Source of the DNA: Chloroflexota bacterium
GTDB lineage: Bacteria; Chloroflexota; Anaerolineae; Anaerolineales; Villigracilaceae
Direction of reading: 5' to 3'
Length of the DNA stretch: 64,000 bases
NCBI GenBank assembly: GCA_016234535.1
Contig: JACRBH010000168.1
Span: 1 to 64,000 of the forward strand
In this document: piece after piece, positions 5,612 to 30,715 of the stretch
Numbering within the stretch: position 1 is the stretch's first letter
How the letters are laid out: every line of letters begins with the position of its first letter
Translations under genes and position numbers: made by a program
Notes under the pieces: generated by a model
What the model saw: the letters and a program-made list of their open reading frames with translations, nothing else
Told to the model about the DNA's origin: nothing
Database searches by the model: none

Positions 5612-5708
5612 CGTCATTGCGAGGGCGATGTTTTTCCGCCCGAAGCAATCTCCAACTTAATCATGAGATTGCTTCGTCGCTCACTTTCGTTCGCTCCTCG
5701 CAATGACG
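5612..5708. repeat. ~97-bp imperfect palindromic dispersed repeat (family A: CGTCATTGCGAGG…GCAATCTCC…GGAGATTGC…CCTCGCAATGACG)
   Basis: Terminal inverted ends CGTCATTGCGAGG/CTCGCAATGACG; copies listed elsewhere in window. Confidence 0.9.
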
Positions 5709-9642: not shown

Positions 9643-9672
9643 AATGAACGCATATAATCAATGGAGAAATTC

Positions 9673-10062
9673 ATGAAAAAACTGTTATTCGTTTACATAA
9701 TTGGCCTTACCATCATATTATCGGCCTGCGGATCAGGCGCGTCATCCAGCCCCGCGGTGGAGGCGGTTGAAGGCTATGTCAATGCAATTGTCGCCAACGA
9801 TGCCGACAGTCTCTCAGCGCTTTCCTGCGCGGACTGGGAATCAGACGCGTTGATCGAGCTTGATTCCCTGCAAGCAGTGACATCCACACTCGAAGGTTTT
9901 GCCTGTCAGGAAACAGGGAAGGATGGCGATAACACACTTGTTCACTGCGATGGAAAAATGATCCTCAGCTATAACGGCGAGAATCAGGAACTTGACCTGT
10001 CCACCCGCACTTATCAAGTTGTGGAACAGGGCGGCGACTGGCTGGTTTGTGGAGTCCGCTAA
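9673..10062 (+). CDS. Small secreted lipoprotein of unknown function
   Basis: MKKLLFVYIIGLTIILSACGS lipobox; GGAG upstream of internal ATG at 9673. Confidence 0.75.
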   Translation: MKKLLFVYIIGLTIILSACGSGASSSPAVEAVEGYVNAIVANDADSLSALSCADWESDALIELDSLQAVTSTLEGFACQETGKDGDNTLVHCDGKMILSYNGENQELDLSTRTYQVVEQGGDWLVCGVR

Positions 10063-10067
10063 AAGAA

Positions 10068-10152
10068 TTTCACCACGAAGGGTCACAACGGCACACAAAG
10101 GAAAACCCTAAAAAAACCTTTGTGACTCTTCGTGACCCTTTGTGGTTACGAA
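10068..10152. repeat. Palindromic repeat family B (ACCACRAAGGGTCAC…GTGACCCTTTGTGGT)
   Basis: Inverted ends; related copies at 13953 and 36116. Confidence 0.7.
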
Positions 10153-10158
10153 CTTTTT

Positions 10159-10275
10159 ATGAAACGCATCCTCTCCCACGAAAACCTCCTCGCATTGCTC
10201 TTCTGCCTGATCCTGATCGCTCTGGTCATCTTCACGGCAGACAGCAGCCCAACGTGGATTTATCAAGGTTTCTAA
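10159..10275 (+). CDS. 38-aa single-TM microprotein, DltX-like (MKRILSHENLLALLFCLILIALVIFTADSSPTWIYQGF)
   Basis: Absent from the ORF track (<60 aa); stop codon directly abuts the ATG of the MBOAT gene; one hydrophobic helix; C-terminal WIYQGF resembles the DltX [F/W]IYxxF terminus. Confidence 0.7.
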   Translation: MKRILSHENLLALLFCLILIALVIFTADSSPTWIYQGF

Positions 10276-11703
10276 ATGACGATCATTCAAATTCTGATCG
10301 TTGCGGCGGCGGCCTTATTTTGGGGGCTGGTCATGCGCGAACGCGGCCGCAAATATTTTCTGCTGATCGCAAGCATTCTCGTCATCTTCTGGCTGCAACC
10401 CGCCCTGCCCCTGCGCGGATTCGATTTTTGGATTCCCATTGCAACGCTCATCATCACAGTTTTCAGTTGGTACATCACCGCCACCGAAGAATCACGCCGC
10501 GAGAAAAAGAATTGGATCGTCATTGGAATTCTTGTCGGCATGACTTTATTGTTGAACCTGACTCGTTTCCTTCCATTCGACTCAATCCTCACTCCATCCC
10601 GTCCGCCTCAAATCGAAATCACCATCGTGATTCTTTTCGTGACAGGACTGACGCTGTCAGCCTTATCTCGTCTGACACGTTTCAGCGCTTCTTTTTTAAC
10701 CATTGGCCTGATCCTGACCATCGGGCTGTTTCTGCTCATCAAAATTCCCTACCTATCCCATTGGCTCGTTTATTTCCTTCGCTCACTCACAGGGCAGGAT
10801 GTTTCCGCATCACGCATAACTGATTTCCGCTGGCTGGGATTTTCCTATGTCGCCTTCCGCATCCTCCATACCCTGCGTGACCGTCAAATGGGGCGGCTTC
10901 CTTCTGTTGATCTGGCAGAGTATGTGACCTACGTTATTTTCTTCCCCGCCTTCACTGCTGGCCCCATTGACCGCATTGAACGATTTATCAAAGACCTGCG
11001 CAAACCGTCCACACTTGGAAACGATGAATTGCTGATCGCAGGTCAACGCTTTATGGTCGGCTTGTTCAAAAAATTTGTCGTGGCTGATGCGCTGGCCTTG
11101 ATCGCCTTGAACGACACGAACGCGCTGCAAATCAAGTCCGCTGGCTGGATGTGGATTGTGCTTTACGCTTACGCCTTTCAAATCTACTTTGACTTTAGCG
11201 GCTACACTGATATCGCCCTCGGCATTGCCCGCTTCCTCGGAATCAACTTGCCTGAAAATTTCGCCTCGCCATATCTCAAACCTAACCTGACCCAGTTTTG
11301 GAATAACTGGCACATGACGTTGACTCAATGGTTCCGCGCTTATTTCTTCAACCCCGTTACACGCTGGCTGAGATCATGGGAAAAGCCCATGCCTGCGCCA
11401 GCCATGATCGCGTTGACTCAAGTTGCCACGATGCTGTTAATCGGTTTCTGGCACGGCGTCACATGGAATTTTGCGCTGTGGGGACTCTGGCATGGAGTTG
11501 GCTTGTTCATTCACAACCGCTGGAGCGACATGACCAAAGTCTGCGCTGGGGAGTGGGCGACGACGCCATTGCGGAAAACTATAATGAATGTAAGCGGAGT
11601 AGTGATTACATTCAACTTCGTCGCACTCGGCTGGATATTTTTCTCCTTGTCGTCAACATCCACTTCAATGCAGGTATTTTTGATGCTGTTTGGTATGAGA
11701 TGA
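10276..11703 (+). CDS. MBOAT family O-acyltransferase (DltB/AlgI-like)
   Basis: FWNNWHMTLTQWFRAYFFNP and IGFWHGVTWNFALWGLWHG motifs, multi-TM. Confidence 0.95.
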   Translation: MTIIQILIVAAAALFWGLVMRERGRKYFLLIASILVIFWLQPALPLRGFDFWIPIATLIITVFSWYITATEESRREKKNWIVIGILVGMTLLLNLTRFLPFDSILTPSRPPQIEITIVILFVTGLTLSALSRLTRFSASFLTIGLILTIGLFLLIKIPYLSHWLVYFLRSLTGQDVSASRITDFRWLGFSYVAFRILHTLRDRQMGRLPSVDLAEYVTYVIFFPAFTAGPIDRIERFIKDLRKPSTLGNDELLIAGQRFMVGLFKKFVVADALALIALNDTNALQIKSAGWMWIVLYAYAFQIYFDFSGYTDIALGIARFLGINLPENFASPYLKPNLTQFWNNWHMTLTQWFRAYFFNPVTRWLRSWEKPMPAPAMIALTQVATMLLIGFWHGVTWNFALWGLWHGVGLFIHNRWSDMTKVCAGEWATTPLRKTIMNVSGVVITFNFVALGWIFFSLSSTSTSMQVFLMLFGMR

Positions 11704-11704
11704 T

Positions 11705-11802
11705 CGTCATTGCGAGGAGCGAACGACAGTGAGCGACGAAGCAATCTCCGTGACAGTGTTGAAGATTGCTTCGGGCGAAAGAACATCGCCCTCGCAATGA
11801 CG
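11705..11802. repeat. Family A palindromic repeat copy within the acylation operon
   Basis: CGTCATTGCGAGGAGCGAACG…CCCTCGCAATGACG. Confidence 0.9.
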
Positions 11803-11815
11803 AGAATGAGTATTC

Positions 11816-12910
11816 ATGAAAACACTTAATATCATCGTAAAAGGCTTTCTGCTTTTCATTATCATTAATTTGCTATTCGCCATCCTGCAACCGGGGATTG
11901 GGAAACTCTCTGCCTATAACATAATCTTTCCGGGGCGGGAGCGATTACCCTTTGGGGAGAATTCTGCGAAGGCATATAACCTAAGTCTGTTTGATCTGGA
12001 CGCGATGTTCGCGTCACATGAAATCAATGGCGGCCAGAAACAAGCAGATGAATTCCGCGTGATCCTCGTCGGTGATTCTTCTGTTTGGGGAACGTTGCTC
12101 AAGCCTGAAGAAACATTGGCAGGCCAGCTTAATTCTGCAAATCTTTCGGCGTGCGGAAAGAATGTCCGTGTGTACAATCTTGGGTATCCGACTATTTCTC
12201 TGACGAAGGATGTGCTTCTGCTTTCGCGCGCGATGGAATATCAACCAGACCTTGTCATTTGGCTGACGACATTGGAAGCGTTCCCTGTGGAAAAGCAGAT
12301 CGCTTCGCCGCTGGTCGCCAACAACGAAGAGTCTCTCCTTCGTCTGGCAAACAGCTCCGAGCTTAAGGTTGACCCGAATGACCCTGCTTTTAGCCGGGAC
12401 TCATTTTGGGGTAGTACCATCATCGGGAGGCGGAGGGCGCTCGCAGATGTCTTCCGCCTGCAAATCTACGGCGTGATGTGGGCCGCGACCGGCATTGATC
12501 AAATTTATCCGACTGATTATCAGAAAGCGCAAATTGATCTTGAAACTGACCAAAAATTTCACAGGTTCGAGCCGCCGAGCATGGATGAAAATTTTCTCGC
12601 GTTCAATGCTCTCGAAACTGGAATCAAGATGGCAGGCAACACACCTATCGTAATTGTCAACGAACCAATGCTGATCAGCGCAGGGAAGAACAGCGATGTC
12701 CGCTATAATTTCTTTTATCCGCGCTGGGCGTATGACCAATATCGTTCGATGATGAGCGAACTGAGCCAGAAAAATAATTGGGCTTATGTTGATCTTTGGG
12801 ATGCAGTGCCCGCCGCTGAATTTACCAACAGCGCGATCCATCTTACGCCAATGGGTGAGGCGCAGTTTGCTGAAAAACTTACACCCATCATCGCGGCGGC
12901 GTGCAAATAA
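11816..12910 (+). CDS. Membrane-anchored SGNH hydrolase-like protein (DltD/AlgX-like role)
   Basis: N-terminal TM, VILVGDSSVWG block I, C-terminal AIHLTPMGEAQFAE block V-like. Confidence 0.8.
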   Translation: MKTLNIIVKGFLLFIIINLLFAILQPGIGKLSAYNIIFPGRERLPFGENSAKAYNLSLFDLDAMFASHEINGGQKQADEFRVILVGDSSVWGTLLKPEETLAGQLNSANLSACGKNVRVYNLGYPTISLTKDVLLLSRAMEYQPDLVIWLTTLEAFPVEKQIASPLVANNEESLLRLANSSELKVDPNDPAFSRDSFWGSTIIGRRRALADVFRLQIYGVMWAATGIDQIYPTDYQKAQIDLETDQKFHRFEPPSMDENFLAFNALETGIKMAGNTPIVIVNEPMLISAGKNSDVRYNFFYPRWAYDQYRSMMSELSQKNNWAYVDLWDAVPAAEFTNSAIHLTPMGEAQFAEKLTPIIAAACK

Positions 12911-13011
12911 CTTATTGCTTGTCTCATATACAAGAAACTTTTCGATGGAAATTGCGAGCAGAAAATACATTTTCAGTTTACTAAATTATGCGATACTATG
13001 CAGGAGTAGGA

Positions 13012-13950
13012 ATGTATAAAGTTCGATATGCCTTACTGGTTTTGATTTCCTTATTAATAGTTGCCTGTGGGGGCAGTGCAATCCAAACAGCAATTGCTCC
13101 CTCAACAAAAAAAGCCACATCGACACCACATCAGGCTGTGCCGGCTGCAACTCAGTTCCCTACCGAGGTTTTGACTTCCACACCCCGCCCCACTCTTGCA
13201 GTGGATGAGTGGGAAAGCCTGCCCATCGTTCCGGCTGTAAGTGAAAGTGCGATTGAGATATATCGTCAGGGACTTAAACTGGGAAACGATCCAAACGCGT
13301 TTTCAAAAGTTGGCGACTGCCAGACCAGTACCGATTTCTTCCTGGTATCTTTTGATCATGCGGGCGGCTACGATCTCGGAGAGTATGCTGACCTGCAATC
13401 CACGATTGATTATTATCAGGGTTCGTTCTCGCGTCAGAGCATGGCTGTAAAAGACGGCTTCAATGTGGCGGCGGTTCTTTCTCCGCTGAGGGCTGATCCA
13501 AATCTTTGCGAGAAAGGTGAAAACCCGCTGGCTTGTGAGATCCGATTGAACCATCCGTCTGTGGTGCTCATCAGCATGGAAACGAATTTCAATTTACAGA
13601 CTGCCACAAAGTACGGTGGGTACATGCGTCAGATCGTCGAATATTCGATTTCGCAGGGCGTTGTGCCGATCCTTGCGACGAAGGCCGATAATAAGGAAGG
13701 CGATAACAGCATCAATGCCGAGATCGCGGCCATTGCGAATGAATACGATATCCCGCTGTGGAATTTCTGGGCGGCGGTTCATCCCCTGCCAAACAATGGA
13801 TTTGACTTGAGCCTCAATGACGGGTTTCATCTTTCACTCGGCAAAAACTACTCTTTTACTGATTCTACCAACATGGAACGCGCCTGGCCCTGGCGGAATC
13901 TCACCGCTTTGCAAGCATTGGATGCTGTGCGGAATGGGTTGAATAAATAG
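13012..13950 (+). CDS. Lipoprotein with SGNH/GDSL-like fold
   Basis: Lipobox LLIVACGG; C-terminal LNDGFHLSLG block V-like; AGGAG upstream of ATG 13012. Confidence 0.65.
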   Translation: MYKVRYALLVLISLLIVACGGSAIQTAIAPSTKKATSTPHQAVPAATQFPTEVLTSTPRPTLAVDEWESLPIVPAVSESAIEIYRQGLKLGNDPNAFSKVGDCQTSTDFFLVSFDHAGGYDLGEYADLQSTIDYYQGSFSRQSMAVKDGFNVAAVLSPLRADPNLCEKGENPLACEIRLNHPSVVLISMETNFNLQTATKYGGYMRQIVEYSISQGVVPILATKADNKEGDNSINAEIAAIANEYDIPLWNFWAAVHPLPNNGFDLSLNDGFHLSLGKNYSFTDSTNMERAWPWRNLTALQALDAVRNGLNK

Positions 13951-13952
13951 CA

Positions 13953-14006
13953 TTCACCACAGAGACCACGGAGAGCACAGAGAGATTCTTTTTAATCTCT
14001 GTGGTA
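13953..14006. repeat. Family B-like palindromic repeat (TTCACCACAGAGACC…ATCTCTGTGGTAAAA)
   Basis: Inverted ends CACCACAGAGA / TCTCTGTGGT. Confidence 0.6.
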
Positions 14007-14044
14007 AAACCGACCAACTTGAACATTGAAAAGGAAAATAACGC

Positions 14045-14290
14045 ATGGCCGAAAACATCACATCCGCTCTCGCAAAATTCATTGCTGAAAAAATATTGAA
14101 GCAGGCAAATAAAGTGATCAAACCTGACGAAGCCCTGATCTCCAGCGGCTTGATCGATTCGTTTAGTTTGATGGACCTGGCATTATTTGTCGAGGACACT
14201 TTCGGGGTGCGGATCGAGGACACCGAGTTGAATGCCCAGACCTTCGATAATTTGTCCCAGCTGACAGAGTTGATCGCTTCGCGCATGTAG
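14045..14290 (+). CDS. Acyl carrier protein (DltC-like)
   Basis: 81 aa, phosphopantetheine motif GLIDSFSLMDL. Confidence 0.9.
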   Translation: MAENITSALAKFIAEKILKQANKVIKPDEALISSGLIDSFSLMDLALFVEDTFGVRIEDTELNAQTFDNLSQLTELIASRM

Positions 14291-14316
14291 GGGCGGGGTG
14301 ACCCCGCCCCCACCAG
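14287..14316. repeat. Family C palindrome (GTAGGGGCGGGGTGACCCCGCCCCCAC)
   Basis: Perfect-ish hairpin overlapping the ACP stop codon. Confidence 0.7.
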
Positions 14317-14321
14317 ATCAA

Positions 14322-16004
14322 ATGACCACACTCTCAAATCTCCTCCACCGCTCCTTTTTGGAAGTCCCTGAAAAAAGGAGCATTGTTTTGCAATTTGCCG
14401 GTCAACCTGATTCAGAGTTGACTTATCGTCAGTTGATCCTCGGCGCGAATCAATATGCGCTGACTTACGCCCGCGAAGAAATACAACCCGGCGAAGTGGT
14501 TTTGCTCATCCTCCAGCATGGACAGGATTTGGCCTTCTCTTTTTGGGGCGCGATTCTACATGGCGCAATTCCCGCCATCATGCCATTCTTGAGCGAGAAG
14601 CTATCACCGGAACGTTATCGCGCGGATTTGGCTTCGCTTATATCAATTACAAAACCAGTTGCGATCATCACATCAGCGGAGTTTGAATCCGAGGCGCGTT
14701 CGGCACTCATGCCCGGTGACTCGATTCGTAAAGTCATCGTAACCAACACCATCGAGCCGCAATCTGAGCCTGATTTCGATTCATTGTTAGGCATGAAAGC
14801 CTCGCCAGAAGACATTGTCATCTTGCAGCATTCCTCGGGGACAACGGGTTTGCAGAAAGGCGTGGCGCTTTCGCACAAGGCTGTGCTCAATCAACTTGAG
14901 GCGTACAGCAAAGCCATTCAACTCGACCCTGAAAAAGATGTCATCGTCTCGTGGCTGCCGCTATATCACGACATGGGACTGATCTCGTGTTTCCTCATGC
15001 CCGTCCTTTTGCGCGTGCCAGTCATTGAGTTGTCGCCTTTCGATTGGGTGCGCGCTCCATACAAGTTGATGCAATCTGTCTCGCAATACAAAGGGACATT
15101 AAGCTGGCTTCCAAATTTTGCCTACAACTTTTGCGCGAACAAAATTCGCGAGCGCAACCTTGAAGGCGTTGACCTCTCCACTTGGCGGGCGATCATCAAC
15201 TGCTCAGAACCTGTCCATGCCGAAAGCCACCGCCTCTTCGCGGAGAAGTTCGAGAAGTTCGGGCTGAATCCGCTGGCTTTGCAAACATCCTATGCCATGG
15301 CGGAGAATGTCTTCGGGGTCACTCAAAGCTCATTGGAAGCTGGACCAACTGTCGTTGAGATTGACCGCGAATCCTTCATGATGGAGCGCATCGTGAATCC
15401 TCCAAAAGCGGATCGACCATCCATGAAAGTAATGTCGTCGGGACGTCCGCTCGACAACACAAAAATCCGCGTGATCAATGAAAACGGCGAAGACAATCTT
15501 GACCGCATGGTCGGTGAGATCATGCTGCAAAGTGACTGCATGTTGAGCGGTTACTACAACCGCCTCGATGCGACCGAATTGGCGATGCGCGATGGCTGGT
15601 ACTTGACTGGTGATTACGGTTTTCTTGCGGACGGTGAGTTGTATGTCTCAGGCCGCAAAAAGGACATGATCATCGTCGGCGGAAAAAATATTTATCCGCA
15701 GGACCTCGAAGCGCTGACCAGCGAAGTACCCGGTGTACACCCTGGCCGCACGGTGGCGTTTGGCATGTACGATGAAGAAGCAGGGACGGAGGAAGTCGTC
15801 ATCATCGCCGAAGTGGACAGTGAAGAACCGTCTGAGCAGGAAGTCATCGCGGACGCGATCCGCAAGCATGTGACGAAAAGCTCCGCCATTGCGCTGAGGC
15901 ACGTGAGGGTGGTTGGAGAAAAATGGATCGTGAAAACCTCCAGCGGCAAGACTGCGCGCTCGGCGAATAAGGAAAAGTTTTTGAGGGAACTTGAAGATCA
16001 ATAA
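14322..16004 (+). CDS. Acyl-AMP ligase / fatty-acyl-AMP ligase-like adenylating enzyme
   Basis: LQHSSGTTGLQKGV, SWLPLYHDMGLIS, YVSGRKKDMIIVGGKNIYPQDLE; start placed at MTTLSNLL. Confidence 0.9.
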   Translation: MTTLSNLLHRSFLEVPEKRSIVLQFAGQPDSELTYRQLILGANQYALTYAREEIQPGEVVLLILQHGQDLAFSFWGAILHGAIPAIMPFLSEKLSPERYRADLASLISITKPVAIITSAEFESEARSALMPGDSIRKVIVTNTIEPQSEPDFDSLLGMKASPEDIVILQHSSGTTGLQKGVALSHKAVLNQLEAYSKAIQLDPEKDVIVSWLPLYHDMGLISCFLMPVLLRVPVIELSPFDWVRAPYKLMQSVSQYKGTLSWLPNFAYNFCANKIRERNLEGVDLSTWRAIINCSEPVHAESHRLFAEKFEKFGLNPLALQTSYAMAENVFGVTQSSLEAGPTVVEIDRESFMMERIVNPPKADRPSMKVMSSGRPLDNTKIRVINENGEDNLDRMVGEIMLQSDCMLSGYYNRLDATELAMRDGWYLTGDYGFLADGELYVSGRKKDMIIVGGKNIYPQDLEALTSEVPGVHPGRTVAFGMYDEEAGTEEVVIIAEVDSEEPSEQEVIADAIRKHVTKSSAIALRHVRVVGEKWIVKTSSGKTARSANKEKFLRELEDQ

Positions 16005-16025: not shown

Positions 16026-19000
16026 TCAAGCACTATGGACCCCCCAGACTTTTATCACTCCATCATCCCCTGCGGATAATAAATAGTGACCATCCTGTGA
16101 AAAGACAAGATAATTGATACGGCCTTTGTGTCCATCCATTGTTTTGACAATTTTCATAGTACTAATATCTATCAGAGTTATTGCTCCATCTTCAGTTCCT
16201 ACAGCTGCAATATCAGCACTAAGATTGAAAGCCAAGCTGGTTAATGTTTGCCCCTCGAAAGGCAAGTCCTTGACTACTTGACCAGTAGTTGTATCGACTA
16301 TTTGTAACAGAGATGGCTCGCTCCATCTATTTCTTATCAATCCAATCCATTGTTTGTCCAAACTTATTGCGTATTGAGGGTAATCTCTTCCAACTCCACC
16401 TTCAAAATCAAAGATATCCTCGGCTTTATCAAATTTAATTAGAGAAGGCGGCCATGCCTGTTCATGCCTTGAAACAACCAACCATTCACCATCAGAACTG
16501 ATGGCAGCCTTACGCGAATTATTTCCCTCCAAATGGCTGATCAAAGTTCCAAGTGAAAGATCATACATCCATACGCCCCCAGTTCCTAAAGTTACAAGGC
16601 GTTTGCCATCGGAGCTGAATACTGCGCCGTAAAATTGCTGTAATATCTGGCCTTCCCAGTAATATTCAACCCATGGGTCTTCTGCCTCTTCAGGTAGCGT
16701 TTTAAGAAAATTACCCGTGTTTGTATCATATAGTGAAACGCGATATGGACTATAAGCGGCTACAAGGTCGCCAGCAGGACTGACCGCAAGAATTCTGCCA
16801 GAGGTAACATATGTCGTTTGATTTAGACCGGCACCCTCTATATTAAATGTCCAAATAGTATTTTCTGCCCACGCAGAGATATTTCCATCTAGACGGGTTA
16901 TCAAACCCGAAATTGGGCCATTATGTGAGTGTGATTTTACAATTGGTTCCTGATTAGCCAAGTTCCAAACGATTATTTGACCGTCATGACTCATAGAAAC
17001 AAGTTGCGTTCCATCGGGTGCAAAAGACATTTCGGCAATCGTGCCACTATGCCCAATCAATTTTCCCAGCAAGCGCCCTAATTTTCGGTTATACAACCAA
17101 ACATCGTGTTCACTTGTTCCAACTGCAATAAGGCTGTTATCCTCATTGATTGCGACAGATGTAACGGTATTATCGTACAACGTCAAATTTCCATTAATAT
17201 GACCTTCATAGAGATCGATCTTATATGGGGAAAGACTGGGAGCAAGACTCCAGATCCACGCAGTTCCACCCGCAGCTCCAACAATATAATTGCCATCCGG
17301 ACTAAATGATATATCAGTAATCTCAGCTTCGGGTCCACCTAGGCCAGTTACAATTGCGCCAGTTTGCAAGTCCCAGACACGGATGGAATTATCTGACTGA
17401 ATTGCTGCAACCAAACGGCTGTCCGGGCTAAAGACTGGCCAATATGAATATTGTGAATCACTTCGCAATAACACCCCACTCTGACCCGTTTCCAAATTCA
17501 ATGTACTTAATCCTGAAATACCACTGGCAAAAACCATCCATTTTCCATCCGGACTAATGGCTGGTTGACCATTACCAGGTAAATCAGCTAACTTGGTTGA
17601 AACAGTCGCATCCCAAGCCTCTACCTTTCCCGACTTGTTGACCCCAGCGAATAACACACGCCCATCTTTGACTACTTGACTATTAGTGACCCAAATACTT
17701 TCAGATTCAAAGTGATTTACTTCCAGCAATGTTTTGGGGTCATATTGATAAACACCTTGAGAACTAGAAACAGTAATTGTATTGTCAACTGGTGACCAGA
17801 TCATTTGATCAACACTGCCTTTTCCAATGCGCGCTATGTGTTGTATCCTTGATGCATTCGCCGGTGTGATTGCATCCGGTTGAGAAGGGGGCACAGGAAA
17901 AGGAGTTACGATTTGCGTAGGTTGTGGTGTGGAAGTAGGGTAATTACCATCTGAGTACCATGGTGTTGGTGTAAGCGGCAAAGAAGGAGATACAAACCCG
18001 GATTGAAATGCTGCTTGTGAATATTTACCAATATCCCATAAACTAATCTTGCCATAGTCGGCAGTTGCCAACATCTCATCATCGGGGCTGAGTGCCATGT
18101 CGCCAATATCATAGGTTTCATCCGAAACGAAAACAAGTTGCCCAGTATCAGTTCGCCAGATATAAAGTTGACGATGATCTACAAGAGCTATAAGGAATTT
18201 TCCGTCCGCGCTGAAACGCATGGGCTCAACTTCGCGCACATGCGTGGGCAACTTAACCATTTTGCCATTGTCAAGATTCCAAATCTCGATCCAATAGTCG
18301 CTTTCATCATAATTGTTACGAGCAAATAAATGTCCATTTAATGCAATAGCGCTAAAAGCATTGGGATCGGCAGCAGGAAGATCTAATTTGTGAATTAACT
18401 TTCCAGTAACGGCATCCCAAATAGCAGCGCCACTGTTCCGATCCAATACACCATAAATAAACTTCCCATTTTGAGAGTAAGACACACTGGTTGGGAAAGC
18501 TACTGGTTGAATCTGCTCAAGGCTCATTTTCTTGCTGGCAGACTCTATATCCCACACTTCTATGGAAACATCATTTCCAAAAGCTAATTCTTTACCATTT
18601 GGCGAATAAGCTATTCCCTGTTCCCCGTATGCTCCTGTCCCAATTCCTGGCCCAAAGCCATTGCCACCCGCTGCGTAAAAAGCCATAACTTGCCCCGAAA
18701 GCAAAGCATCAGCAGAAATGGAAAGTTCTTCTGCGCCTGAGCGAAGATCCCACGAAGAAATACTTCCATCTGTTGTGACAATCCCCAGATGATTTCCATC
18801 GGGGCTGTACGTCATTCCAGCGAGCGACATTGCCCCTTCTTTATCGAAAAGGGTCAACGCTAATTCATGAGTTTGCAAATCCCATATTTGAATACTTCCA
18901 TGTCCAACAGCGATATTTTTTCCATCAGGGCTGAAAACAACCTTGGAACCGCCACCTGCCAGCAAATAACCCTCTCCGAGCATTTGTTCAGCTAACGGAT

Positions 19001-20021
19001 CGAGAGCAGGCCGGAGCGTAAAAGCCGTTTTACCTGATGCCAAATCAAAGGTGAATTCTGATTGGTTGGCAACCCTGATGATCAATTCTCTATTATCTGA
19101 TGAAAACTTCACGTTTTGCACGTCATCCAGAAAACCTGCTATTGTACGTTTTAGCTTTCCCGTGGCAGGATTCCATAACCGTACCATACCATCCAAGCTG
19201 GAAGAAGCCAATAAACTTCCATCAGAACTGAAATCCACGCTTGTTATTTTTGACGGTTGTTCCTTAATCTCAAATTTGATTACATGCTCTTTAAGATCCC
19301 AAATATATAAAATGTTATTCGTACTATCAGAATATCCAGCAGCAACTAAAGTCCCATCTGGACTTATTGCAGGGACCGTCAAAACATGATAGCGACTTTC
19401 ATAAAGCACTGGATAACAATCTCCATACATATCTCCATCCGGGCTCTCTTGTTTTTTAGTGAGATTCAGCTTGCAGATGCCATGATAAGGTCCTCCCGTT
19501 GTGCGATCAGCAGCTAGATAAAGAACAGATTGATTGTCGGGCGTGAAGACCGGCCCGTAGGCAGGACCATTTCCACCATAGCCGTGAGCAACGGTACGTT
19601 GACTTCCCAGATCAATCACATCGAAGCCAGAAAATCCAATAGTTAGGAACTGTCCATACGGGCTAAATGAAATACCGCCTGCATATCCATCATCGGAAAC
19701 TTTCATGGCTGAAATTTCGCTATGGTCACTAGCATCAAGCTGGCGTAAAGTATATCCATCATTCACAATGATGCTTGTGCCGTCTGGTGACCAGACAATC
19801 TCTGGCAAAGTACCTTTTCCCATTTCAGCCAGTTTGACCAATTGTGTATAAGGCGTGGCAGTAGGTGTTTGACTGGGAAAAGGTGTAGTAGATGCTGTAA
19901 GACTAAGAGTAGGTGTATCAGAAGGAAAAGGTGTCACGGGCCCACAAGATGCGGCTAATAAGATTAAGAAGGCCAGCACAATTATGATTTTGACAGGAGA
20001 AAGTTGCTTATTAATGAGCAT
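16026..20021 (-). CDS. Large WD40-repeat lipoprotein, two beta-propeller regions joined by a Pro/Thr-rich linker
   Basis: Lipobox LLAASCGP, many …FSPDGK…IWDLQTG… repeats, linker LTPTPWYSDGNYPTSTPQPTQIVTPFPVPPSQP. Confidence 0.9.
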   Translation of the reverse strand: MLINKQLSPVKIIIVLAFLILLAASCGPVTPFPSDTPTLSLTASTTPFPSQTPTATPYTQLVKLAEMGKGTLPEIVWSPDGTSIIVNDGYTLRQLDASDHSEISAMKVSDDGYAGGISFSPYGQFLTIGFSGFDVIDLGSQRTVAHGYGGNGPAYGPVFTPDNQSVLYLAADRTTGGPYHGICKLNLTKKQESPDGDMYGDCYPVLYESRYHVLTVPAISPDGTLVAAGYSDSTNNILYIWDLKEHVIKFEIKEQPSKITSVDFSSDGSLLASSSLDGMVRLWNPATGKLKRTIAGFLDDVQNVKFSSDNRELIIRVANQSEFTFDLASGKTAFTLRPALDPLAEQMLGEGYLLAGGGSKVVFSPDGKNIAVGHGSIQIWDLQTHELALTLFDKEGAMSLAGMTYSPDGNHLGIVTTDGSISSWDLRSGAEELSISADALLSGQVMAFYAAGGNGFGPGIGTGAYGEQGIAYSPNGKELAFGNDVSIEVWDIESASKKMSLEQIQPVAFPTSVSYSQNGKFIYGVLDRNSGAAIWDAVTGKLIHKLDLPAADPNAFSAIALNGHLFARNNYDESDYWIEIWNLDNGKMVKLPTHVREVEPMRFSADGKFLIALVDHRQLYIWRTDTGQLVFVSDETYDIGDMALSPDDEMLATADYGKISLWDIGKYSQAAFQSGFVSPSLPLTPTPWYSDGNYPTSTPQPTQIVTPFPVPPSQPDAITPANASRIQHIARIGKGSVDQMIWSPVDNTITVSSSQGVYQYDPKTLLEVNHFESESIWVTNSQVVKDGRVLFAGVNKSGKVEAWDATVSTKLADLPGNGQPAISPDGKWMVFASGISGLSTLNLETGQSGVLLRSDSQYSYWPVFSPDSRLVAAIQSDNSIRVWDLQTGAIVTGLGGPEAEITDISFSPDGNYIVGAAGGTAWIWSLAPSLSPYKIDLYEGHINGNLTLYDNTVTSVAINEDNSLIAVGTSEHDVWLYNRKLGRLLGKLIGHSGTIAEMSFAPDGTQLVSMSHDGQIIVWNLANQEPIVKSHSHNGPISGLITRLDGNISAWAENTIWTFNIEGAGLNQTTYVTSGRILAVSPAGDLVAAYSPYRVSLYDTNTGNFLKTLPEEAEDPWVEYYWEGQILQQFYGAVFSSDGKRLVTLGTGGVWMYDLSLGTLISHLEGNNSRKAAISSDGEWLVVSRHEQAWPPSLIKFDKAEDIFDFEGGVGRDYPQYAISLDKQWIGLIRNRWSEPSLLQIVDTTTGQVVKDLPFEGQTLTSLAFNLSADIAAVGTEDGAITLIDISTMKIVKTMDGHKGRINYLVFSQDGHYLLSAGDDGVIKVWGVHSA

Positions 20022-22821: not shown

Positions 22822-22916
22822 TGTCGTTGCGAGAAGGGCTTTAGCCCGACGAAGCAATCTCCACATAACAGGAGATTGCTTCGTCGCTCACTACCGTTCG
22901 CTCCTCGCAACGACAT
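22821..22916. repeat. Family A palindromic repeat copy
   Basis: ATGTCGTTGCGAGAAGG…CTCCTCGCAACGACAT. Confidence 0.9.
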
Positions 22917-30620: not shown

Positions 30621-30715
30621 CGTCATTGCGAGGAGGGCTTCAGCCCGGCGAAGCAATCTCGCTCGTTGAGTTGGAGATTGCTTCGGGCAAAGGACAGAGC
30701 GCCCTCGCAATGACG
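30621..30715. repeat. Family A palindromic repeat copy
   Basis: CGTCATTGCGAGGAGGGC…GCCCTCGCAATGACG. Confidence 0.9.

Follow-up and report, generated by a model that had tools for sequence, protein, structure and literature searches.

In the DNA analysed here, a stretch of 64,000 nt on contig JACRBH010000168.1 of a Chloroflexota bacterium of the class Anaerolineae (referred to as the window), we found a gene set that probably encodes a transmembrane relay on the Dlt plan. The group moved would not be an amino acid, and is itself probably a fatty acyl group, which would pass from a ligase to the carrier protein ACP, an MBOAT, Tyr35 of a microprotein, Ser88 of the protein SGNH1 and finally to an acceptor in the envelope. 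It seems that a peptide of only 38 residues takes an acyl group, in all likelihood a fatty acid, outward across the membrane on a single tyrosine. The best reading of the data is that the system works like Dlt, yet is not Dlt, the relay function being inferred: in the family tests applied, the microprotein fails as a DltX, the MBOAT as a DltB and SGNH1 as a DltD, and we regard the system as a previously undescribed variant of the MBOAT-SGNH relay. A preliminary description of the locus had named the microprotein, the MBOAT, two SGNH proteins, ACP and the ligase, all of which we found on the plus strand where it had placed them. Its range of 10159-16004 covers these genes and leaves out LPP0 (9661-10062), a conserved member of the same gene set. 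The features are as follows:

9661-10062, plus strand: LPP0, small lipoprotein; homologues lie directly 5' of the microprotein in most main-lineage loci
10159-10275, plus strand: microprotein of 38 aa, single transmembrane segment, ending in WIYQGF, proposed acyl shuttle through Tyr35; supported by conservation, coding tests and hydropathy
10276-11703, plus strand: DltB-like MBOAT without C-terminal Tyr motif; Pfam PF03062 (1.2e-18), DltB matches in the PDB, residue mapping
11705-11802, no strand: interspersed palindromic repeat in the gap between MBOAT and SGNH1, outside the mechanism; several copies in the window
11816-12910, plus strand: SGNH1, N-terminally anchored SGNH protein with GDS Ser88 and His342; motif conservation, SGNH fold
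12988-13950, plus strand: SGNH2, SGNH-like lipoprotein with GDC (Cys111) replacing GDS; motif conservation, SGNH fold
14045-14290, plus strand: ACP with the phosphopantetheine Ser39 in LIDSF; Pfam PP-binding (4.3e-07), DSF conserved
14322-16004, plus strand: FAAL (fatty acyl-AMP ligase); NCBIfam FAAL subfamily (1.5e-103), FAAL structures first in the PDB

The conserved gene order is LPP0, microprotein, MBOAT, SGNH1, SGNH2, ACP and ligase, and the TAA of the microprotein abuts the MBOAT ATG at 10276. Among the window proteins Pfam and NCBIfam recognised the MBOAT, two weak GDSL/SGNH matches, a PP-binding carrier and an adenylating enzyme of FAAL type. Where sufficient flanking DNA was available, 26 of 50 loci contain the full gene set, and a further six of the 50 combine the MBOAT with microprotein, SGNH1, ACP and FAAL in the absence of LPP0 and SGNH2. 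FAAL and ACP adjoin the MBOAT in most loci, which together with the FAAL class of the ligase favours the relay. LPP0 has four conserved cysteines in addition to the lipobox Cys, and in one genome the LPP0-microprotein pair is located away from the MBOAT; we propose an accessory role for LPP0 and the Cys-type SGNH2 within the main lineage. The genes are dispersed in Leptolinea tardivitalis, with FAAL and SGNH1 located elsewhere in the genome, and the plasmid of Leptolinea sp. HRD-7 (L100:8377-10356) carries LPP0, microprotein and MBOAT with the remaining genes not adjoining.

The palindromic repeat at 11705-11802 (CGTCATTGCGAGGAG ... GATTGCTTCG) splits the operon, and further copies are found near 5612-5708, 22850-22915 and 30621-30715. 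An inverted repeat at 10069-10149 (TTCACCACGAAGGGTCAC and its imperfect complement) is located in the gap between LPP0 and the microprotein. Convergent with the operon, positions 16026-20021 of the window encode a 1331-aa WD40-repeat protein with a lipoprotein-like start.

The microprotein (MKRILSHENLLALLFCLILIALVIFTADSSPTWIYQGF, 10159-10275) shows a hydropathy peak of 2.82 over 19 residues, starting at residue 10. Comparative sequence evidence confirmed the 38-aa ORF as a real gene: in relatives the ORF shows abundant synonymous variation, and dN/dS is 0.18 (725 pairs), as against 1.15 and 2.15 for the two alternative forward frames. On the Leptolinea plasmid an independent submitter had annotated the same ORF as a 47 aa hypothetical protein. 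We collected 60 distinct homologues by similarity, without using the tail as a condition, and 59 of them end in P-x-WIY(Q/L)GF, the remaining one being cut by an assembly gap. Loss of the ORF or of its C-terminal Tyr motif in related operons would have refuted the preliminary description; both are kept. The small ORF it had proposed to look for upstream of the MBOAT at other loci was likewise found: among 67 distinct MBOAT orthologues, 62 had readable upstream DNA, and the microprotein adjoins 60 of these. No adjoining microprotein was seen at three MBOATs (L106, L115 and L086, the last near a contig end), and each of their genomes contains exactly one WIYQGF-stop elsewhere and none of the control pattern. 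In G200 and G613 this copy and the MBOAT are on different contigs, and in G614 the copy precedes a second MBOAT. L021, another candidate for a locus without microprotein, was ruled out because of an assembly gap. The 4.8-Mb genome of the window contains WIYQGF-stop once and the reversed control pattern never. This near-constant pairing, with one copy elsewhere in the three remaining cases, favours the relay.

How closely the microprotein is related to DltX is a separate matter. The test for a single transmembrane segment and a C-terminal F-x-Y-x-x-F was met, WIYQGF keeping the Tyr position and the last Phe, with Trp replacing the first Phe. In this respect the label "DltX-like" given earlier holds; it does not extend to family membership. 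The DltX profile PF12459 matched neither the microprotein nor its place in a profile search of the genome, no Pfam or NCBIfam family matched the microprotein above cut-off, and hhalign against DltX aligned only the last eight residues (E 0.055). We therefore rejected an identification of the microprotein as DltX, and that no likeness can be detected beyond the tail, as far as these comparisons reach, counts against the relay. Within the microprotein, conservation is highest in the tail.

For the MBOAT, DltB was the sole convincing match in the PDB (3e-45). The NCBIfam DltB model (TIGR04091) was matched at 8e-65 with 219.5 bits, below its cut-off of 375 bits, and DltB membership was thus not met. 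His346 and His393 correspond to His289 and His336 of DltB, and of the DltB pocket residues given in PMC11035591, those covered by the alignment are matched in the window protein by aromatic residues as well (or by the His). The retained active-site His and pocket aromatics are a further point in favour of the relay. A C-terminal Tyr motif is absent in all 67 orthologous MBOATs; by its two histidines and the missing motif the window protein qualifies as a DltB-like MBOAT. Chloroflexota MBOATs close to that of the window have no such motif at their end, whereas more distant ones carry a fused F-x-Y-x-x-F, the exceptions being a handful of partial frames and L097, a DltB-like MBOAT beside a DltA-like ligase. 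L097 belongs to a Chloroflexota genome (G083) outside the class of the window and forms an apparent DltA-DltB pair.

A regular-expression search of 67 more MBOAT frames, almost all of them from phyla other than Chloroflexota, gave 61 matches to the fused motif. On reading the tails, the matches in L102 (a DltB) and L118 were judged spurious, and a near match in L155 had been missed. Among the short MBOATs of this comparison, most are accompanied by a separate shuttle (DltX for Enterococcus DltB; the candidate-phylum loci L168, L151 and L225/L245; L118); for L102, a plasmid DltB, none is annotated. In L168, L151 and L245 (candidate phyla) and L118 (an Actinomycetota MAG) this shuttle is a small ORF ending in FIYxxF, and no ACP or FAAL was recognised near any of the four. 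An Ignavibacteria SGNH protein beside a short MBOAT (L125:8938-10059) ends in a hydrophobic stretch and FFYANF; to judge from this tail the shuttle may here be fused to the SGNH partner. Among the MBOATs compared, the fused Tyr motif and the separate microprotein could be shown to exclude each other. A quick tree of 75 MBOATs groups the fused ones in one clade (99*), the Chloroflexota orthologues in another (99*) and DltB in a third (100*), and the Chloroflexota family, DltB and a few short MBOATs fall outside the fused clade. The tree is unrooted and cannot distinguish fusion from fission, and the matches listed in the contig scan do not prove that orthologues are absent outside Chloroflexota. 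The orthologues without a Tyr motif of their own, the distant MBOATs with a fused one and the single fused clade together favour the relay.

A reading has to be weighed here in which the microprotein is a subunit that helps to assemble or regulate the MBOAT, with a structural Tyr and an MBOAT that acylates the acceptor or SGNH1 directly. Acyl-Tyr has not been shown in this system, and a regulatory role has also been considered for DltX and DltD (PMC11035591). Against it stand the strong conservation of the tail, which matches the PatA motif with its acylated Tyr, and the presence of the microprotein exactly where the MBOAT has no motif, and we consider this reading very unlikely. ACP-FAAL pairs stand beside fused-motif MBOATs in two genomes, G035 and G040, as though a fused tail could replace the microprotein and vice versa, which favours the relay; the same two genomes led us to reject the idea that a carrier is used only with a detached shuttle. 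The fused tails in such pairings (L271, L272) read FIYIQF and FVYQEF, the donor cassette being swapped between shuttle types.

The SGNH fold with GDS Ser and His was tested for SGNH1 and met: GDS and His are present in 58 of 58 aligned homologues, an invariance that favours the relay, and the model has an SGNH fold at moderate confidence (mean pLDDT 76). DltD was the second-best match of this model in a fold search, with a low TM-score. By sequence SGNH1 had no PDB profile match and an hhalign E of 0.47 against DltD, so that DltD membership was not met, and the window protein lacks the Asp normally found three positions ahead of the His; both points count against the relay. SGNH2 is also modelled with an SGNH fold. 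GDC occurs in 45 of its 50 aligned homologues and GDS in five; since these five retain the other two cysteines, C174 and C183, we infer that Cys111 is a putative Cys nucleophile and not a disulfide partner, as this pattern suggests.

The ligase had been described as FAAL-like and not amino-acid-adenylating, which our searches bear out. FAAL structures (3pbk, 3kxw) were its top PDB matches, and it is 21% identical to DltA (39 bits), so that a close DltA relationship was not met. FAALs have a specific helix before the canonical CoA pocket, and the helix region is known in 3PBK (PMC8460268); residues SPFDWVRAP of the ligase align to it gap-free. In its relationship and this helix the protein meets the test for a FAAL as judged by alignment, while activation of a fatty acid and loading of ACP are inferred. 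Its frame is open from GTG 14298, and ATG 14322 is the better start because relatives align from about residue 5-9. The DSF of ACP is conserved in 41 homologues, and no BLAST match to the DltC tested was obtained. In the phylum sample a FAAL scoring above 600 bits occurs in 15 genomes, all of which also hold an MBOAT orthologue, and 15 of 18 genomes with an MBOAT orthologue hold such a FAAL, a co-occurrence inflated by shared descent. The three MBOAT genomes without a close FAAL (G113, G232, G200) count against the relay.

These data bear on whether the locus is a true Dlt system after all, with orthologues of DltX, DltB, DltC and DltD and a diverged or replaced ligase, still moving D-alanine or another amino acid. 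The parts list is identical, the MBOAT is nearest to DltB in both NCBIfam and the PDB, and the Tyr stands at equal distance from the C-terminus. Against this, the ligase is closest to FAALs, ACP does not match the DltC tested, the MBOAT reaches only 219 of 375 bits and falls in a clade apart from DltB, and the DltX profile is unmatched, which makes a true Dlt system decidedly unlikely.

In the relay that we prefer, FAAL would adenylate an acid and load it onto ACP. The DltB-like MBOAT would then take the acyl group off the carrier and place it on Tyr35 of the microprotein's WIYQGF tail, which would reach the MBOAT funnel from outside; the loaded Tyr35 would pass it to Ser88 of the anchored SGNH1, and SGNH1 would acylate an unidentified envelope acceptor. 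The transfer order, the acyl type, the acceptor and the role of the Tyr are inferred, and no experiment stands behind the relay itself. Acyl-Tyr shuttling has been shown by experiment in PatA, in a paper that also summarises DltX chemistry (PMC12148441), and this chemistry likewise favours the relay. A "surface polymer" as acceptor is an inference as well. The same relay might instead serve a membrane lipid, glycolipid or lipoprotein and remodel lipids of the outer leaflet, for which we can cite, by inference only, a conserved set without a recognised acceptor-synthesis gene and with the two lipoproteins LPP0 and SGNH2. Envelope polymers are the targets of those MBOAT/SGNH pairs whose function is known (PMC12148441), and we hold a lipid acceptor to be unlikely.

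Like dltXABCD, which serves teichoic acid D-alanylation in Bacillota, the Anaerolineae system has a carrier, an adenylating ligase, a DltB-like MBOAT, an SGNH protein and a separate single-TM microprotein with a C-terminal aromatic-x-Tyr-x-x-Phe. It differs in that the ligase is a FAAL, the tail is WIYQGF and not FIYN(E/D/Q)F, LPP0 and SGNH2 are extra lipoproteins, microprotein and SGNH1 lie outside the Dlt families by sequence, and the MBOATs form a separate clade. With the PatA/PatB and AlgI-type MBOAT/SGNH O-acetyltransferases it shares MBOAT, SGNH and a C-terminal Tyr hexapeptide; there, however, the MBOAT itself bears the motif as a fused tail and the acyl donor is acetyl-CoA (PMC12148441), whereas here the motif is on a separate peptide and carrier and ligase are encoded. 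FAAL with a free-standing ACP is also known from lipopeptide and polyketide cassettes, which unlike the present pair are not linked to a transmembrane MBOAT/SGNH relay. A literature search on teichoic-acid D-alanylation in Chloroflexi returned nothing relevant, and among the papers listed from the open-access literature (subscription papers were outside the search) none joined a FAAL with an MBOAT.

A 2025 paper describes non-Dlt MBOAT/SGNH pathways without microprotein and without carrier (PMC12148441); in contrast to that model, the Anaerolineae system has both. As both are present together with a different activating enzyme, the Tyr shuttle looks separable from Dlt, and the apparent peptide-borne acyl transfer in Anaerolineae suggests that a relay peptide of the kind known from D-alanylation of teichoic acids in Gram-positive bacteria is also present in a separate, undescribed system. 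More tentatively, and with less than even confidence, we suggest that the envelope relay of Anaerolineae represents a widespread undescribed fatty acylation with the acyl group borne by a separate microprotein, that the detached state is ancestral to PatA/AlgI through a single fusion, and that SGNH2 uses a Cys nucleophile. From the relay one would expect some component of the envelope to be acylated in a large and little-studied group of bacteria, and natural detached and fused versions are available for testing its mechanism.
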